Below, piece after piece: positions 12,975-39,660 of a stretch of DNA of 64,000 nucleotides. Source of the stretch: Aquisediminimonas profunda (lineage in GTDB: Bacteria > Pseudomonadota > Alphaproteobacteria > Sphingomonadales > Sphingomonadaceae); the NCBI RefSeq assembly GCF_019443285.1, contig NZ_CP080327.1:2476001-2540000 (forward strand). The letters are read 5' to 3'. Positions within the stretch are counted from its first letter, which is position 1. Each line of letters begins with the position of its first letter. The notes beneath the pieces were generated by a model. That model had not been told where the DNA came from, did not search any database, and saw only the letters and a list, made by a program, of their open reading frames with translations. Both the position numbers and the translations under genes were made by a program.

Positions 12975-13241
12975 ATGATCGTTCAAACAAGCGGCGCTCA
13001 TGCCGCAAACGCAGACCGAAGCCATGTTACAGCGCCCAGGCTGCTGACAGAGATGCAGGCCGCCAAGTACATGGGCAGAAGTCAGACCAGCTTTCGAAAG
13101 CAGGTCGCGCTTCACGTCCTGCCGCAGCCCAGTACGGCGAACGGCAACCGCAGACTTTGGGATCGAGCCGTGCTCGATCGGTACATCGACATTTGTTCAG
13201 GCCTCAACGCAGGGAACGATAACTCATGGGACGACTTATGA
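12975..13241 (+). CDS. AlpA/excisionase-like helix-turn-helix protein
   Basis: This 88-residue product has a winged-helix excisionase pattern: LLTEMQAAKYMGRSQTSFRKQV, then a basic GNRRLWDRAVLDRYID segment near the C-terminus. Such proteins bend DNA at attachment sites or switch on the integrase gene. The stop overlaps the start of the recombinase by 16 bases, so both are probably translated together. The N-terminal ~20 residues look unstructured and the start could be slightly further in. Confidence 0.7.
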   Translation: MIVQTSGAHAANADRSHVTAPRLLTEMQAAKYMGRSQTSFRKQVALHVLPQPSTANGNRRLWDRAVLDRYIDICSGLNAGNDNSWDDL

Positions 13242-14263
13242 TCCGGGGCGTCGTCGAGAAGAACGGCAGTTTCTACCGCCGGTTCAAGGTCAAGATCGGT
13301 GACAAGTGGAAAGACCACTACGTAAAGCTTCCGCACCCAACCGATCCGCGGTTTGCCGAGGAACTTGCTCGCATCAACGGCAAGCCGCCAGAGCGGGCAA
13401 AAGTGGGGAGGGGGACAATCCGCGCCCTGGTGATCGAACAGCGCACCATGCTCGCCAAGACCGACATGGCCAAGACGACGCGCACCAACTGGGCTTATTA
13501 CTTGGGTCTGATCGAGGAAGAGCATGGCCATCGCCTGGTCTCCGAGCTCCGCAAGGCCCATGTCTACAAGATCAGGGACGCAATGGCCGAGACACCTGGC
13601 AAGGCCAACAGCTATATCTCGAAGATGCGGGCGATGCTCGACTTCGCATGTGAGCGCGACTGGATCTCGGCAAACCCCGCGTCAGGCGTGCCGAGCCTCC
13701 CGATGGGCGAGCACGATCCCTGGCCGGCCCATGTGCTGGAGGCAGCACTTGATGCAGCCGACCCGATGCTGCGCCTCGCTATCGTCACCGGCCTGTGCTC
13801 GGGCCAACGGCTGAGCGATGTCATCCGGATGGAGCACGGCTGGCGCAACGGCAAGATCATGGAAGTCCGCAGCAAGAAGACCGAGACCGATGCGGCCGTG
13901 CCGATGCACCCGATCTGGCTAGCCGAAATCGCCAAGGTCCCCAAGAAGTCGGTGACCCTGCTCTACGACCGGTTCGGCAAGCCCTTCTCGGGCACAGACA
14001 GGGTCCAGGAGCGTTTGCGCAGACTCATGCACAGCCTCGGCTTCATCGATGACGAGAAGCAGCTCCTCTACACCTTCCACGGCCTCGGGAAGAACGCCTG
14101 CTGCTATCTGACTGAGTTGGGCCTGAGTGATACCGAGATCAGCGCCATTGTGGGTAAGACCGCGGAGACCGTCAGACACTACGCCAAGAAGGCAAGGGTG
14201 CTGATGGTCGCTCAAGGAGCATCGGAACGGGTCTTCGCCGGGCGGATCTCTGGGTTGAATTGA
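13226..14263 (+). CDS. Tyrosine recombinase (integrase) with altered catalytic boxes
   Basis: This 345-residue phage-type integrase has a core-binding SAM-like domain (~65-150) and a catalytic domain (~165-325). Arg I is present in CSGQRLSDV (Arg195), a lysine in the beta-hairpin (SKK, 217-218), and the nucleophile Tyr319 in VRHYAKKA. Box II reads HGLGKN (His285 to Asn290) where active enzymes have HxLR, so the second catalytic arginine is a glycine (288). The usual His/Trp before the tyrosine is Lys311 in VGKTAET. The rest looks intact, so this is either a divergent active subfamily or an impaired enzyme. It likely mobilised the 10.2-15.0 kb element. Confidence 0.85.
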   Translation: MGRLMIRGVVEKNGSFYRRFKVKIGDKWKDHYVKLPHPTDPRFAEELARINGKPPERAKVGRGTIRALVIEQRTMLAKTDMAKTTRTNWAYYLGLIEEEHGHRLVSELRKAHVYKIRDAMAETPGKANSYISKMRAMLDFACERDWISANPASGVPSLPMGEHDPWPAHVLEAALDAADPMLRLAIVTGLCSGQRLSDVIRMEHGWRNGKIMEVRSKKTETDAAVPMHPIWLAEIAKVPKKSVTLLYDRFGKPFSGTDRVQERLRRLMHSLGFIDDEKQLLYTFHGLGKNACCYLTELGLSDTEISAIVGKTAETVRHYAKKARVLMVAQGASERVFAGRISGLN

Positions 14264-33433: not shown

Positions 33434-36358
33434 ATGTTGACTCACATATCTGTGCGCGGTGCGCGCGAGCACAATCTCAAGGGCGTGGACGTTGATATTC
33501 CGCGCGATACTCTGACCGTGATCACCGGACTCTCCGGATCCGGCAAATCGAGCCTGGCCTTCGATACCATCTATGCCGAGGGGCAGCGACGCTATGTCGA
33601 GAGCCTGTCCGCCTATGCGCGGCAGTTCCTCGAAATGATGCAGAAGCCTGATGTCGATCATATCGAGGGCCTCTCGCCCGCGATCAGCATCGAGCAGAAG
33701 ACGACCAGCCGGAACCCGCGCTCCACCGTCGCGACCGTGACAGAAATCTATGATTACATGCGGCTCCTCTGGGCCCGGGTCGGCATTCCCTATTCCCCGG
33801 CAACCGGCCTGCCGATCACGGCGCAGACGGTCAGCCAGATGGTCGACCGGGTGATGGCGCTGCCGGAAGGGACGCGAGCGTACCTGCTTGCACCGGCGGT
33901 GCGGGGCCGCAAGGGCGAATACAGGAAGGAACTGGCCGAATGGCAGAAGGCGGGCTTCACGCGCGTCCGCGTCGACGGCCTGTTCTTCGATATCGAGGAC
34001 GCACCCGCGCTCGACAAGAAATACAAGCATGACATCGAGATTGTGGTGGACCGGATCGTCGTCCGCGAAGGGATCGAGACGCGGCTGGCAGATTCGTTCG
34101 AAACCGCGCTGAAGCTGGCGGACGGGCTGGCCTATCTCGATCTGGCCGATGCCCCGGCAGAGCCGGTCGAAGCCAAGGCCGTTCTGGGGAACAATGCCCC
34201 GCCGGGCCGCATCGTCTTTTCGGAGAAATTCGCTTGTCCGGTCTCCGGCTTCACAATTCCGGAAATCGAGCCGCGGCTGTTCAGCTTCAATGCCCCGCAA
34301 GGGGCCTGCCCCTCGTGCGACGGGCTGGGGGAGAAGCTCTATTTCGATCCCGAACTCATCGTCCCGAACGAATCCCTCTCGATCAAGGCCGGGGCGATCG
34401 TGCCCTGGGCCAAGTCCAACCCGCCCAGCCCCTATTACATGCAGGTGCTGGCGAGCCTTGCGCGGCATTATGATTTCTCGCTCGACACGCCCTGGAAGGA
34501 CCTGCCCGAGGCAATCCGCGATGTGATCCTCAACGGCTCGGGCGGGACGGTCATTCGCCTGACCTTTCAGGACGGGCGCAAATCCTATGATGTGAACAAG
34601 AGCTTCAACGGCGTTGTCGGCAATCTCAACCGCCGCCTGCTCCAGACGGAGAGCGCCTGGATGCGCGAGGAGCTGGCGAAATACCAGGCCTCTGCGCCGT
34701 GCGAGACGTGCGGCGGCGCCCGGCTCAAGCCCGAGGCACGTGCGGTCAAGATCGCGGGAGAGGATATCAGCATCTCAACCCGCCGCAGCGTGGTCGATGC
34801 GCTTCATTGGTTCGGCAGCCTCAACGAAAAGCTGAATGACCAGCAGCAGCAGATTGCCAAGGCGATCTTGAAGGAAATCAACGAACGGCTCGGCTTCCTC
34901 AACAATGTCGGGCTGGACTATCTCAACCTCAACCGCACATCGGGCACGCTGTCCGGCGGGGAGAGCCAGCGCATCCGCCTTGCGAGCCAGATCGGCTCCG
35001 GCCTGTCGGGCGTGCTCTATGTCCTTGATGAGCCAAGCATCGGGCTCCACCAGCGGGATAATGACCGGCTCCTCGAAACGCTGAAGCGCCTGCGCGATCT
35101 CGGCAATACGGTCATCGTTGTCGAGCATGACGAGGATGCCATTCGCCACGCCGACTATATCATCGACATGGGGCCCGGCGCGGGCGTCCACGGTGGCGAA
35201 GTCGTGGCGCGCGGGTCGCTCGCCGATATCGAGGCCGCCGAAGGCAGCCTGACGGCGGACTATCTGGCCGGGCGGCGCGAGATCCTCGTCCCCAAGAAGC
35301 GCCGCAAGGGCACCGGCAAGAAGCTGACGGTCAAGGGCGCGCGCGAGAACAATCTGCGCGACGTGACGGCCTCGATCCCGCTTGGCACCTTCACCTGCGT
35401 GACCGGGGTCAGCGGCTCGGGCAAGTCCAGCTTCACGATCGACACGCTCTATGCCGCCTCCGCCCGCGCCTTGAACGGCGCGCGGATCATCGCGGGCAAG
35501 CATGACAAGATCGAGGGGCTGCAATATCTCGACAAGGTCATCGATATCGACCAGTCCCCGATTGGCCGCACCCCGCGATCCAACCCCGCCACCTATACCG
35601 GCGCCTTCACCAACATCCGGGACTGGTTCGCCGGCCTGCCCGAAAGCGGCGCGCGCGGATACAAGCCCGGGCGCTTCAGCTTCAACGTGAAGGGCGGGCG
35701 GTGCGAGGCGTGCCAGGGCGATGGCGTCATCAAGATCGAGATGCACTTCCTGCCGGACGTCTATGTCCAGTGCGACGTGTGCCACGGCAAACGCTACAAT
35801 CGTGAAACGCTGGAAGTGAAGTTCAAGGGCAAGTCGATTGCCGATGTGCTGGACATGACGGTTGAGGACGCGGTCGAATTCTTCAAGGCCGTCCCCTCGA
35901 TCCGCGACAAGATGGCAATGCTGGCGGAAGTCGGCCTCGGCTATGTCACCGTCGGCCAGCAGGCAACGACCCTGTCAGGCGGCGAAGCGCAGCGCGTGAA
36001 GCTCGCCAAGGAACTCAGCAGGCGGGCGACCGGCCAGACGCTCTACATCCTCGATGAACCCACGACCGGCCTGCATTTCGAGGATGTGCGCAAACTCCTC
36101 GAAGTCCTCCACGCACTTGTCGAGCAGGGCAACACTGTGGTCGTGATCGAACACAATCTGGACGTGATCAAGACCGCCGACTGGATCCTCGACCTCGGCC
36201 CCGAAGGCGGCGTGAAAGGCGGCGAAGTGATCGCCGAAGGCACGCCGGAGCAAGTCGCGGAAAACCCGCGGAGCTATACCGGCGGGTATTTGAAGCCGCT
36301 GTTGGCCAAGGGGAAGCGGGCCGCGCCGACGGAACTGGAGCTGGATGCGGCGGAGTAG
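33434..36358 (+). CDS. uvrA: Excinuclease ABC subunit A
   Basis: This 974-residue ABC-type damage sensor belongs to nucleotide excision repair. The first Walker A ([13 protein letters not shown]) is near residue 35 and the second ([13 protein letters not shown]) near residue 660. Zinc fingers ([25 protein letters not shown]...CDVCHGKRY) and two signature motifs ([11 protein letters not shown] and [11 protein letters not shown]) are in normal order. The in-frame start at 33317 was rejected because ATG 33434 gives the standard N-terminus. The SOS box lies just upstream. The last codons are followed by an AT-rich gene group that appears foreign. Confidence 0.97.
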
Positions 36359-36384
36359 GGGCCGCTAACCAAAAAAAGTTCCTT

Positions 36385-37467
36385 TTAAATGAGGGCGCGA
36401 TTCAACCCTATCAATCCGACGCGCTCTGCGCGGAGTGCTCGCTTCATGGGACTTGTTAGATAAGCTCGGGTTTTTAGTTCGGATTCACTCAATTGAGTAA
36501 GAGCAGACAGTAACTCGTCGACTTCTGCTTTAAGCGATTCCGCAAGTGGAACTCGTTCCGAAAATAAGTCCCCACCATTCCAATTCAAAATTGGTTTACC
36601 CGATCTAAAGCTCACATCTACAGATTCGAATTTTTTGTACCAACGTGAACCAAGTTCTACGCAATATGGTCCATCTTTCTGACGTATATAGAAAAAGTCT
36701 GTTAGTTTACTATCATGATCTTTAAGATATCTATAGTCCAATAAATACATAATCTTATGTAACTTAAACAGGCTCAATACCTGCATTTCCGACAACACAT
36801 ATCGGACTATCTCCCATCCAGCTCGAGGCGGTATTACCGAAGCAGTTTTTGCGCGCTTTGAAAACAGGCGCCGATAACTTTCGCCAACAAAATAGTAGTC
36901 GGCTGTTTGAGCTGCAAAATTGCGGTGAATCATCGCACGCGCGCCGGGATGATATAGTGGAATAAGCTTACGTCCATTCCAGTCGTGCATTGTTCGCACG
37001 CTCTCCGAGACCGTGAGCGTGTGCGGACAGACTAATGTGAGAGCATTTAGTGCTGCGGCACCAAGAGTGACAATGATGTCTGGATTAATGACCTCGATCT
37101 GATCGCGTAGCAGATTCGAGCAATGGCGGATCGCTCGCTTACTTGGTGGAGCATTGTTACCTTTATCGTCAGTCGGGTTGCACAGGATGGAATTTGTAAC
37201 AAACACTTCGGATCTGCTAAGGCCCGCTAAGCTAAGAAGGCGTTCAAAATTGTCGCCTGCGACATCTCCGTGAAAAGGAATTGCGGTGCGCTCGGCACCC
37301 AAACGGCCAGGAGCTTCGCCAATAAACATTATTCGAGCATTTGAAGGCCCGTTCGTATCTGACAAAACTCGATTACATCCTGCCATCTCCGGGCAAAGCT
37401 CGCAGGCGTGCGCCCTAGCTATGAGGTCAGCAAAACTTTTGTTCTCAAACTGCTGCGAGATAAGCAT
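36385..37467 (-). CDS. Fe-S uracil-DNA glycosylase fused to a Panacea/SocA-like domain
   Basis: The protein has 360 residues in two parts. Residues ~1-200 match family 4/5-type uracil-DNA glycosylases: CELC (Cys22, Cys25) with Cys96 and Cys116 as the likely 4Fe-4S ligands, GEAPGRLGAE (50-60), and LYHPGARAM (171-179) as the C-terminal motif. Residues ~215-330 (LFKLHKIMYLLDYRYL, QKDGPYCVEL) resemble Panacea (DUF4065/SocA) domains, known in antitoxins and defence-linked proteins. The gene is AT-rich and overlaps the previous gene by 23 bases. Its expected role is removing uracil or a modified pyrimidine from DNA, with the extra domain as control or partner-binding part. Confidence 0.8.
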   Translation of the reverse strand: MLISQQFENKSFADLIARAHACELCPEMAGCNRVLSDTNGPSNARIMFIGEAPGRLGAERTAIPFHGDVAGDNFERLLSLAGLSRSEVFVTNSILCNPTDDKGNNAPPSKRAIRHCSNLLRDQIEVINPDIIVTLGAAALNALTLVCPHTLTVSESVRTMHDWNGRKLIPLYHPGARAMIHRNFAAQTADYYFVGESYRRLFSKRAKTASVIPPRAGWEIVRYVLSEMQVLSLFKLHKIMYLLDYRYLKDHDSKLTDFFYIRQKDGPYCVELGSRWYKKFESVDVSFRSGKPILNWNGGDLFSERVPLAESLKAEVDELLSALTQLSESELKTRAYLTSPMKRALRAERVGLIGLNRALI

Positions 37468-38185
37468 TTGCTTGTGATTTTCTTTCTACAAATGGATGTA
37501 GTGAAACCACATCACACCCGGTAAATGTTCGCCCCGTTTTGTCAGCTATAAAATGCCCAAGATCATTCAGCCCAATAAAATTGCCCAGAGCCTTCTCAAC
37601 GTAGTCATGTGCTCTATATAGTCCAACTATTGATAGCAATTTGTCTCCATATAATCTCAACTGAACATATTGAAGACAAGGACTCCCTAAAGGTTTGAAT
37701 GATTCCGTTAAAAGATTAGTATGAATATAAAACGCAGCTTCATAGTTTTTATCCCACTCAACAATTTTTTCGATCGCTTTTAAAAGCTTATTTTGACTAA
37801 TTGATTCTCTATCCCCATTTTTATCTATCCATGATCCAGTCAATCGTTCAAAATAAGTATGAGACCAACCGCTATATTTAAGACCTCGGCTCCTCCCACG
37901 CCCCATCATAATTTGGCCAGACTCTATTGCCTCAGCTGCCGACTGTTTAGACATGCGCACCGACTTCGGTAACAGCATCGAGGCAACGCTTGATGGCGAA
38001 TCAGCCTTAACCTCCCGCGCTGCCTTGTCTAAGGCTTGCCGCTGTTCGTTGGAACCCTGCCAAGCGTTGCCAAAGCTCACTACTAGCACATATCCGACTG
38101 ATTTTTGGTTGGCCACAAGATCACAAGCAGCTTTCCACGCTAGCACCAGATCACTGTCGTAAATTGCTGATGCTAACCCCGTCAT
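37445..38185 (-). CDS. Thymidylate synthase-like protein
   Basis: This 246-residue protein has a C-terminal half resembling ThyA/dCMP hydroxymethylase. GSPCLQYVQLRLYGDKL aligns with the catalytic PC of ThyA (Cys170 here), YRAHDYVEKALGNF with YQRS-x-D-x-x-LGxPFN (Arg191, Asp194), and LGHFIAD with the following helix. The N-terminal half also fits loosely (YERLTGSW-type helix near 111). It is too divergent and short for normal dTMP synthesis. It overlaps its neighbours by 4 bases (ATGA) and 23 bases. Possible roles are methylation or hydroxymethylation of a pyrimidine nucleotide, or nucleotide sensing. Confidence 0.65.
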   Translation of the reverse strand: MTGLASAIYDSDLVLAWKAACDLVANQKSVGYVLVVSFGNAWQGSNEQRQALDKAAREVKADSPSSVASMLLPKSVRMSKQSAAEAIESGQIMMGRGRSRGLKYSGWSHTYFERLTGSWIDKNGDRESISQNKLLKAIEKIVEWDKNYEAAFYIHTNLLTESFKPLGSPCLQYVQLRLYGDKLLSIVGLYRAHDYVEKALGNFIGLNDLGHFIADKTGRTFTGCDVVSLHPFVERKSQANAYLAAV

Positions 38186-39027
38186 CTGGCATCAAATTTC
38201 ATTTTTTTAGTGACCATATCACACGATACACGGCCCCCGTTGTTAGACATCAGCTTGTCGAAATTCTGAAAACCCATCGCAATCGCATCGCGCCATGCTG
38301 TAATGTCACGATTTCGCACTTCGAGACCTTTCGTCATAACTTTTATAGCGGACAGGACGGAGAATGGAATATTGCGGCGGTCGCTAAACGCCGAAACTCC
38401 CTCGGCGGTGCAGGTATTCTGATTGAACACAAAAACTGAAATGCCTTCCTCCAAAAACACCGATCTGGCGCCATCTTCAATGCGATCGATATCAGTGTTA
38501 TATTTTCGCTTAAGGCCCAATTGCTGCCGCGCTACAGGAGACCAACCCAATCTAGTCATATAGGCAAAATGAAACACGTCATGAAAACGATAGCCGTCGT
38601 CATTGTGGGCGTTATCATCAAGCTCATCCCCAAATGGAACGCCATTGACCCGGATGTGCACTTTAGCGCCGCTAGGCTCAAACGTTAGGCTGAATTTTTC
38701 AGGAAAGCGCTGATCTTTAGGAGCCTTGGCATCTAGCTGTTCATCATTCCCATTAAAAAGGTATCTCGACTTCTCTAAATTTTTCTCTGCAATTTCAGAG
38801 AGCTGGATATCGTAATGCGTGGCAATTTCTGCGACATACCAAAGAACATCTCCTAGCTCAGTTGCAATTTCGTCCTTCACGACTTTCGCGGCGGTATTCT
38901 CGCGTTTAAGCTTCTTAATTGAGCTTGCGACACTTCCAGCTTCACCGAATAGTCCAAGTGTAAATACTTCAATATCGCGCGACTTTGCTGTCTTATGAGC
39001 TTGTCGCTGGTATTCGTCGATTTTCAT
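38182..39027 (-). CDS. MazG-like nucleotide pyrophosphohydrolase with long C-terminal domain
   Basis: This 281-residue protein has an N-terminal all-alpha NTP pyrophosphatase domain (residues 1-90). GLFGEAG (Glu29) and ATELGDVLWY (Glu57, Asp60) give the metal-binding ExxE/ExxD pattern, though the second Glu of the first pair is Ser32. The C-terminal ~180 residues (FHDVFHFAYMTRLGW, DGARSVFLEEG) form a domain seen with some MazG-like proteins whose function I cannot name. AGGAGAG precedes the ATG. It heads the AT-rich three-gene operon and probably hydrolyses or senses (d)NTPs. Confidence 0.75.
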   Translation of the reverse strand: MKIDEYQRQAHKTAKSRDIEVFTLGLFGEAGSVASSIKKLKRENTAAKVVKDEIATELGDVLWYVAEIATHYDIQLSEIAEKNLEKSRYLFNGNDEQLDAKAPKDQRFPEKFSLTFEPSGAKVHIRVNGVPFGDELDDNAHNDDGYRFHDVFHFAYMTRLGWSPVARQQLGLKRKYNTDIDRIEDGARSVFLEEGISVFVFNQNTCTAEGVSAFSDRRNIPFSVLSAIKVMTKGLEVRNRDITAWRDAIAMGFQNFDKLMSNNGGRVSCDMVTKKMKFDAR

Positions 39028-39053
39028 AGTTCTCTCCTACGAATATCGAGAAG

Positions 39054-39059
39054 ATTATA
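39054..39059 (-). promoter_or_regulatory. Probable -10 element of the MazG/ThyA-like/UDG operon
   Basis: TATAAT on the minus strand lies 27 bases before the first ATG; CTATTG at 17-base spacing could serve as a weak -35. This fits a vegetative promoter, but no transcript start is known. Confidence 0.4.
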
Positions 39060-39122
39060 TGAAATTGTCAAACTGCCAATAGATAAATTCTGATATAGAA
39101 TAAGTGTTGGAGATGACAAACT

Positions 39123-39341
39123 TTACTCGAACCCCACCACCACCACCTCCCGAATATCAAAGTCATTAAACCCCACCCGTATCCCCGTCGCGCGGATGCG
39201 GTGGTTGAGGAGTTTGCGGGTCTTGCGGTTGAGGGAGGTCAGCCAATATCCTTCGCCGTCCATTTCGATGATCGCGCCGAGATTGCCTGAAAGTTTCAGC
39301 ACACCCTCCACGGTGAAGGGCTTGTCCGAATAACGCCGCAT
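39123..39341 (-). CDS. DUF5818-like small protein
   Basis: This 72-residue protein has the short beta-strand pattern of DUF5818: FTVEGVLKLSGNLGAIIEMDGEG, then YWLTSLNRKTRKLLNHRIRATG and a final FDIREVVVVGFE. GGAGGAGAG upstream fixes ATG 39341, so the longer open frame to 39476 is not used. Function unknown. The return to GC-rich composition here marks the end of the AT-rich island. Confidence 0.7.
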   Translation of the reverse strand: MRRYSDKPFTVEGVLKLSGNLGAIIEMDGEGYWLTSLNRKTRKLLNHRIRATGIRVGFNDFDIREVVVVGFE

Positions 39342-39660
39342 GTAACTCTCCTCCCGGAAGGGCCGGTCGCGGTGCGCCCCCGCTATGGCCTGTCCAGATC
39401 GATCCAGTGATCGGGGAGTTCGAAAACCGACGTTAGTACGGCTCCTGTAACCTTTAGGCCCGAGGACCCTGGACATGCGTCACAGGCTCCCCGACCGAGT
39501 AAGGATCAGGGTCTTGGTAAGAGTTCGGTCCTACCATCCGACTAACGAGGGGTTTCGACACCCCGGGGCCGCGCGTACGGCCCTGTGGCGCAAGATGTCG
39601 GCAAAGCGCGCACGAGGCAAGGGGGGCTGCTTTGGGGTGTGTGCAAAATTGGCGTTGCCC

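Follow-up and report, generated by a model that had tools for sequence, protein, structure and literature searches.

Brig1 and Brig3 are anti-phage DNA glycosylases of the uracil-DNA glycosylase (UDG) superfamily (PMC11078745, PMC13160076); the gene for Brig1 lies close to other defence genes, and the protein has been compared with the family-4 UDG of S. tokodaii (PMC11078745). Panacea domains (PanAT, DUF4065) have been described as hyperpromiscuous antitoxin domains (PMC8832971). In the DefensePredictor study, thymidylate synthase and 5-hydroxymethyluracil kinase are among the domains of systems that protect E. coli, and MazG and MazG-C appear in unvalidated candidate systems of Figure 6F, whose legend also names UDG (PMC13092281). 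Here we describe three adjoining genes (the trio; positions 36385 to 39027, minus strand) in a 64,000-nucleotide stretch of the Aquisediminimonas profunda genome (NZ_CP080327.1, 2,476,001 to 2,540,000; the window), which encode a MazG-type protein, a thymidylate synthase-like (ThyA-like) protein and a UDG fused to a SocA/Panacea domain. In the reading that we favour, and to which we give a little less than an even chance, horizontal transfer brought in the trio as an anti-invader (most likely anti-phage) cassette with deoxyuridine-type chemistry under Panacea control.

The third protein of the trio shares membership of the UDG superfamily with Brig1 and Brig3 (PMC11078745, PMC13160076). Brig1 reads alpha-glucosyl-hydroxymethylcytosine via Glu147, a position often occupied by Asn in such UDGs (PMC11078745), whereas our protein does not have this Glu for a cytosine-derived base: Asn (N92) was present in 11 of 11 aligned members. 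Brig1 confers immunity alone and Brig3 with a glucosyl-hydrolase partner, whereas the partners here are MazG and ThyA-like proteins and Panacea is part of the glycosylase itself (PMC11078745, PMC13160076). In PanAT, the Panacea antitoxin lies beside its toxin, unlike the present fusion to a DNA glycosylase, and the words "glycosylase" and "thymidylate" occur 0 times in the main text of that paper (PMC8832971). The comparison with DefensePredictor, made with its text and figure legends, gave domains in common with the trio and its wider family (thymidylate synthase, 5-hydroxymethyldeoxyuridine (5-hmdU) kinase, MazG, MazG-C and UDG); however, the text gives no mechanism for the thymidylate synthase/kinase systems, and "Panacea" occurs 0 times in the main text (PMC13092281). 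We found no paper naming the trio in the open-licence literature, and none of the three proteins had a match listed at E <= 10 in PADLOC 2.0.0. Thus, the statement of the first-pass annotation (made on the letters of the window) that the trio is not a named system stood as far as the name is concerned, with the reservation that its domain set had been partly anticipated in print by DefensePredictor in 2026, as far as its text and legends go (PMC13092281).

Gene 1 (38182 to 39027, minus strand; 281 aa) encodes a MazG-type NTP pyrophosphohydrolase domain and a MazG_C domain, gene 2 (37445 to 38185, minus strand; 246 aa) a protein of the thymidylate synthase superfamily, and gene 3 (36385 to 37467, minus strand; 360 aa) a UDG domain and a C-terminal SocA/Panacea domain. 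The coordinates of the open reading frames (ORFs) agree with the overlaps of 4 and 23 bp noted earlier between neighbouring genes on this strand, and the trio is indeed richer in AT than uvrA (45.4% GC versus 63.3%; 64-kb window, 57.8%). Contigs of 84,980 species were scanned with MazG proteins, which gave at least 591 stretches and at least 401 confirmed relatives, and the best 80 were kept (note that these are the loci closest to the window MazG and form a biased sample). Partner genes were called within the available flanks of the 80 loci with profile hidden Markov models built from hand-picked seeds. The exact trio (MazG plus MazG_C, ThyA-like and UDG-Panacea in the same order and on the same strand) was present in 10 of the 80 loci, with intergenic gaps of -23 to +32 bp; homologues of all three proteins thus recur together as a unit, which is the check that the first-pass annotation had suggested. 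The hosts were Herbaspirillum, Variovorax, two Paraburkholderia, Pelomonas, Fibrella and four metagenome-assembled genomes (Burkholderiaceae, alphaproteobacterial, Nevskia and Bacteroidetes); they are distant bacteria that span three proteobacterial classes (including Beta- and Gammaproteobacteria) and Bacteroidota, the class being checked for three of them. Over 12 trios, the distance matrices of the three proteins were correlated (r = 0.92, 0.89 and 0.84), and all three values reached the lowest P that 9,999 permutations allow, 1e-4, with related loci treated as independent. The GC content of the trio was lower than that of its flanks in 10 of 10 loci, narrowly in one (L062; 0.654 versus 0.672).

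In the wider MazG_C family, the UDG is replaced elsewhere by a 5-hmdU-kinase-type protein. A ThyA-like gene was found in 61 of the 80 loci, HMUDK_hel in 63 and UDG in 12 (10 UDG-Panacea and 2 called by another UDG profile); five loci had neither HMUDK_hel nor UDG and none had both, for which the chance is 1e-10 under a hypergeometric model that assumes independent loci. HMUDK_hel was not found in the flanks of any of the 10 UDG-Panacea loci. ThyA-like and HMUDK proteins occurred together in 47 of the 80 loci, mostly with helix-turn-helix (HTH) and ImmA/IrrE proteins. These loci resemble the trio in their homologous ThyA-like and MazG_C proteins and in their tight neighbourhood, and differ in that a 5-hmdU-kinase-type helical protein stands for UDG and ImmA/IrrE for Panacea. 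MazG trees were built from 52 rows (quick) and from 45 rows (careful; seven long or partial rows removed). The UDG-or-HMUDK label required three changes on the careful tree and four on the quick tree; on the careful tree, UDG-Panacea required five changes (5-6 over bootstraps), of which three were forced by well-supported branches, and HMUDK four changes, of which two were so forced. From these trees and co-occurrences, MazG genes have swapped partners, and one position in the locus appears to be taken by either UDG or HMUDK. In one locus (L019), a thymidylate-kinase domain lies ahead of HMUDK_hel.

Another arrangement was found on alphaproteobacterial plasmids (L010-L014), of which the cassette consists of acyl carrier protein-like (ACP-like), HTH, ImmA/IrrE-chagasin, C1 (papain-type) peptidase and ThyA-like genes, convergent with UDG and MazG_C genes; the records differ among themselves, and some genes are split or unannotated. 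The cassette has MazG_C, ThyA-like and UDG-superfamily proteins in common with the trio; it differs in its UDG, which belongs to another profile and is without Panacea (L010), in the additional proteases, chagasin and ACP-like protein, and in its use of two strands. The ACP-like protein of L010 had no Pfam match, and that of a Streptomyces plasmid (L015) matched PP-binding at 1.2e-7. A holo-ACP synthase gene is annotated beside related systems (L012:4120-4506 and L117:7997-8371); given these neighbours, the sequences suggest that the small ACP-like proteins may be loaded. Genes for dCTP deaminase adjoin the related systems L010 and L117 and could feed dUTP. L117 (683-17628; Sinorhizobium plasmid) carries a ThyA-like/kinase-type/MazG system that adjoins a second thymidylate synthase gene, the dCTP deaminase gene and a set of genes assigned in the annotation to an ABC-three component system.

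The fold of gene 2 was predicted with AF2 (pLDDT 87.9), and Foldseek against PDB gave 328 matches at E <= 0.001; the 50 listed of these were thymidylate synthases (one a fusion with dihydrofolate reductase) or CMP/dCMP-modifying relatives. TIGR03283 (methanogen-type thymidylate synthase) matched gene 2 at 34 bits, far below the cut-off of 174.55; however, every one of the 51 aligned ThyA-like members, the window protein included, matches this model at E <= 0.01. Among solved structures, a profile of these members matched CMP 5-hydroxymethylase at E 0.00045, and thymidylate synthases followed, the best at E 0.012. By hhalign, C170, R191, D194 and N202 of gene 2 align with C146, R166, D169 and N177 of E. 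coli ThyA, residues which we take to serve in catalysis and dUMP binding; N177 of ThyA reads uracil. All four (codon of Cys170, 37676-37678; codon of Asn202, 37580-37582; minus strand) were kept in 11 of 11 ThyA-like proteins of the UDG-Panacea type, together with Tyr or Phe at position 232 (11/11) and His230 (9/11). At the position aligned with ThyA N177, CMP hydroxymethylase has Asp in the structure-profile alignment. Gene 2 thus belongs to the thymidylate synthase superfamily by its fold and by its catalytic Cys with equivalents of the dUMP-binding residues, and it lies outside the ThyA family model PF00303, of which the sole match in the host genome was the ordinary ThyA at 344472-345257. 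No phage match to the ThyA-like protein was found at E 0.01.

In gene 3, the UDG domain (PF03167; about 36919-37350) scored 92.9 bits with Pfam, and SocA_Panacea (PF13274; about 36658-36762) scored 20.9 bits (cut-off, 25.7). Both domains were detected in 11 of 11 aligned members (the window protein and 10 homologues), Panacea at E <= 0.01 (best, 2.7e-8). Invariant in all 11 were four cysteines of the Fe-S type (C22, C25, C96 and C116), which align with cysteines of family-4 UDG structures and presumably are Fe-S ligands, as well as G50-E51-A52-P53-G54, F65, N92 and H173-P174; GE[AG]PG and His-Pro are taken here as type-4 UDG motifs. Two curated NCBIfam models of type-4 UDG scored gene 3 at 86.6 and 84.2 bits, against cut-offs of 250 and 125.3, respectively; since both scores are under the cut-off, the protein is regarded as a divergent UDG that these models do not assign to type 4. 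In S. tokodaii UDG, the residues aligned with F65 and N92 are F55 and N82, the base-stacking and base-reading residues, respectively (PMC11078745). We infer from the residues that the pockets of the ThyA-like protein and UDG both read the uracil face, in the free nucleotide and in DNA, respectively; the conserved catalytic and base-reading residues of the two proteins point to the uracil-type pyrimidine chemistry that had been proposed for the trio.

For gene 1, Pfam gave MazG (PF03819; about 38767-38961; 29.0 bits, above the cut-off of 22) and MazG_C (PF18722; about 38191-38742; 184.9 bits). The AF2 model (pLDDT 93.9) had no Foldseek match at E <= 0.001; the convincing matches were MazG/dCTPase-type chains over about 70-110 residues of the MazG half, and no convincing solved relative of the MazG_C fold was found with this model beyond that half. 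As for the ExxE...ExxD motif, which we assume to hold the metal ligands of MazG NTP pyrophosphohydrolases, the window protein keeps E29, E57 and D60 but has S32, S36 and T56 at positions where acids are frequent in relatives. The identities given to the three proteins beforehand are supported by Pfam, by the family-wide matches to TIGR03283 and Panacea, and, for gene 2, by fold. In L055 (7980-9164), the MazG part looks doubled in gene 1 when the translation is inspected by eye. MazG by itself is frequent in phages, with 283 matching records, none of which covered 80% of the query.

The distribution of the trio is patchy. UDG-Panacea was searched at E <= 1e-40 in four overlapping draws (family, 199 genomes; genus, 13; phylum, 398; class, 385), each including the source genome, and the two other matches were a full trio (G524) and a lone UDG (G803). 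The protein was present in one of 198 other genomes of the host family (G524), in none of the 12 other genomes of the genus, some of which are incomplete, and in 0 of 397 other genomes of the phylum draw. Searches from the other two genes found a weak ThyA-like match in four genomes of the class (189 others searched) and MazG_C in two of the phylum (298 others searched); none of these six was of window type in the stretch examined. In G524, which belongs to another genus, the trio (L110:9556-12945) lies at the same site 3' of uvrA, and its MazG gene is interrupted by an insert that has a transposase-like ORF (named by eye); identity to the window was 59% for UDG-Panacea, 52% for the ThyA-like protein, 77% for each MazG piece and 80% for UvrA. 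A conserved insertion site was considered and set aside: only G524 shares it, and outside the trio the relatives do not keep the gene order of the window. A viral or plasmid origin of the trio was likewise rejected. As for plasmids, UDG-Panacea had no match on 72,556 plasmids at E 1e-20. Sixteen phage records matched UDG-Panacea, and 2 of the 10 listed reached the Panacea region (residues 275 and 269) with 23-26% identity (E 6e-7 and 6e-8). As for viral contigs, the 80 listed of 104 UDG-Panacea relatives extend at most to residue 217 of 360.

Gene 3 and uvrA are convergent, with 26 bp between the end of gene 3 and the uvrA stop codon. The first-pass annotation placed the trio in an apparent insertion between uvrA and small core genes. 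The uvrA side is supported by the lack of UDG-Panacea in the genus noted above and by the similarity among nine compared loci of the genus, which stops at the end of uvrA. The other side is not, in that the next genes are not conserved neighbours of uvrA in the genus: the gene at 39.1 kb had a match of just 40 bases, in one of 12 other genomes; the acyl-CoA dehydrogenase gene (42.2 kb) lies away from uvrA in relatives (e.g., contig C3 versus C2 in G514); and a response-regulator gene, presumably ctrA-like, comes after uvrA in five of the six loci examined in the genus, whereas the window has none there. Flanking repeats were sought as an insertion footprint in 36200-39600, and none was convincing.

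To describe the defence context, 40 author-chosen proteins of 123 neighbours were scanned with PADLOC (the selection was not blind); the flanks available for the 10 exact relatives ranged from 5.8 to 8.0 kb on one side and from 0.3 to 6.2 kb on the other. Within these flanks, four of the 10 had a clear gene of known or candidate defence function, and a fifth had a weak one. GajA (1e-204) and GajB (1e-167) adjoin the trio in L021; DruA is near the trio in L062; PDC-S21 (DUF4917) is beside it in L082, together with a SIR2_2 match below the Pfam cut-off; and in Fibrella (L093:10652-13348) a ThsB-type TIR, a dCTP-deaminase-like, an Nmad2 and a HEPN-like protein (the last below the Pfam cut-off) lie by the trio. 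The metallophosphoesterase of L022 matched PADLOC over part of its length only and was rated weak. An 882-aa neighbour in L055, which matches several models non-specifically, was not counted.

As a mechanism for the favoured defence reading, which draws on the folds, residues and linkage described above, MazG would hydrolyse dNTP (dUTP or 5-substituted dUTP), yielding a monophosphate; the ThyA-like protein would bind the dUMP-type monophosphate via its Cys/Arg/Asp/Asn site and modify or sequester it; the UDG domain would excise uracil or 5-substituted uracil, preferentially from fast-replicating foreign DNA with an abnormal pool or abnormal bases; the abasic sites left would block the invader; and the fused Panacea might act as a lock that restrains or couples the activity until infection. 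The substrates, the direction, the excision from invader DNA, the lock and the anti-phage role are all inferred. The interpretation given in the first-pass annotation is supported in part. If the reading is true, a leashed UDG, together with dUMP- and dNTP-handling enzymes of the bacterium, is an immune effector, and glycosylase immunity (Brig1, Brig3) widens from cytosine- to uracil-derived bases and is tied to nucleotide-pool defence; the interchange of UDG and the 5-hmdU-kinase-type protein in addition gives a rule that can be tested on an entire family of loci as yet uncharacterised.

Several results weigh against the defence reading. Defence neighbours were found among the relatives and not in the window, where 10 proteins (seven beside the trio and three further off) had no match in PADLOC, and the count among the relatives (4-5 of 10) stands without a background rate. 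In the window protein, Panacea is itself below the Pfam cut-off, and the hhalign match between gene 2 and E. coli ThyA has a low overall score (probability 0.7%, E 0.082). The MazG of the window lacks acids that are often or mostly present in its family, having S32 (E in 9 and D in 6 of 39 relatives; the ExxE motif would have Glu), S36 (E in 23 of 39) and T56 (E in 37 of 39) instead, so its activity is uncertain. The trio is not one old indivisible unit, because the MazG genes exchanged partners according to the trees. G803 encodes a free-standing UDG of the same profile (L198:21-680), without Panacea and without a partner in the 2.1 kb available; therefore, UDG of such a sort can be ordinary repair. 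(This UDG shares a similar APGRxGA/GDxSGxNFE loop.) A link to the validated thymidylate synthase system of E. coli was also dropped, one Colwellia locus having no blastn match in E. coli genomes.

Four other explanations were weighed. In the first, which we regard as unlikely, the invader is poisoned: the ThyA-like protein makes a 5-modified dUMP (e.g., 5-hydroxymethyl-dUMP) for invader DNA, the fused UDG excises it, and MazG limits the modified triphosphate at rest. The 33 ThyA-like rows of other types, 30 of which have HMUDK, all retain Cys and Asn, but Arg191 persists in six of them and Asp194 in one (lost in 27 and 32, respectively), so that the intact site of the UDG-Panacea type speaks for it, as do the CMP/dCMP hydroxymethylases among the closest folds beside ThyA and the Pfam name of HMUDK_hel, a domain of 5-hmdU DNA kinases. 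However, the trio is without a dedicated kinase for modified dUMP, the product is hypothetical, and the ThyA glutamate E58 has no clear conserved counterpart. The fuller version, in which a dUMP enzyme would load a uracil-type mark into replicating invader DNA and a Panacea-leashed glycosylase would cut it out again, sister systems having a 5-hmdU-kinase-type protein in that slot, appears rather unlikely to us; if true, it would mean base-excision repair turned into a weapon.

The second explanation, quite an unlikely one, is an addiction or abortive module of the toxin-antitoxin kind: UDG or the ThyA-like/MazG part would be toxic, and Panacea would neutralise it. It agrees with the description of Panacea as a hyperpromiscuous antitoxin domain (PMC8832971), with its presence in 11 of 11 aligned fusions, and with ImmA/IrrE, which was found in 48 of the 80 loci and never in the 10 with UDG-Panacea (P 3.9e-5; hypergeometric, assuming independent loci), as if the regulators interchange. 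Nevertheless, Panacea is fused to an enzyme instead of being separate, the order is of three genes, and the plasmid search cited above found no UDG-Panacea. The third explanation, DNA-quality control or pool sanitation, would have MazG clear dUTP, the ThyA-like protein convert or buffer dUMP, and UDG repair uracil in host DNA; it is improbable in our view. The three folds all suit the exclusion of uracil, and the solitary UDG of G803 is in line with it; on the other hand, the trio is rare (1/198 in the family, 0/397 in the phylum draw), low in GC and patchy, the host possesses a ThyA of its own as well as two further UDG-superfamily genes, and a Panacea fusion and defence neighbours are unexpected. 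For the same reason, i.e., the ordinary ThyA and the two other UDG-superfamily genes of the genome, housekeeping thymidylate synthesis was set aside as the main reading; a housekeeping pathway, named beforehand as what would overturn the idea of an anti-phage or DNA-quality module, is unlikely because the host has its own ThyA. The last, very improbable, is a self-marking modification: the ThyA-like protein would supply host DNA with a modified base, and UDG would police its presence or absence. The wider family has relatives of the 5-hmdU-kinase type and L093 has an Nmad2 neighbour, which fits, but the trio has no transferase or kinase and UDG excises rather than decorates.

As for other features of the window, a 345-aa ORF at 13226-14263 is tyrosine recombinase-like by eye, without a Pfam match at E 0.001. 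Directly upstream of gene 1, a promoter-like site (TTGACA-18-GATATT; 39042 to 39071, minus strand) was found in a consensus scan with 10 of 12 matches; it is regarded as weak because six such sites were found in the region versus 4.2 expected. An AGGAG motif resembling a ribosome site was read off the sequence upstream of gene 1 at 39034-39038 (minus strand).

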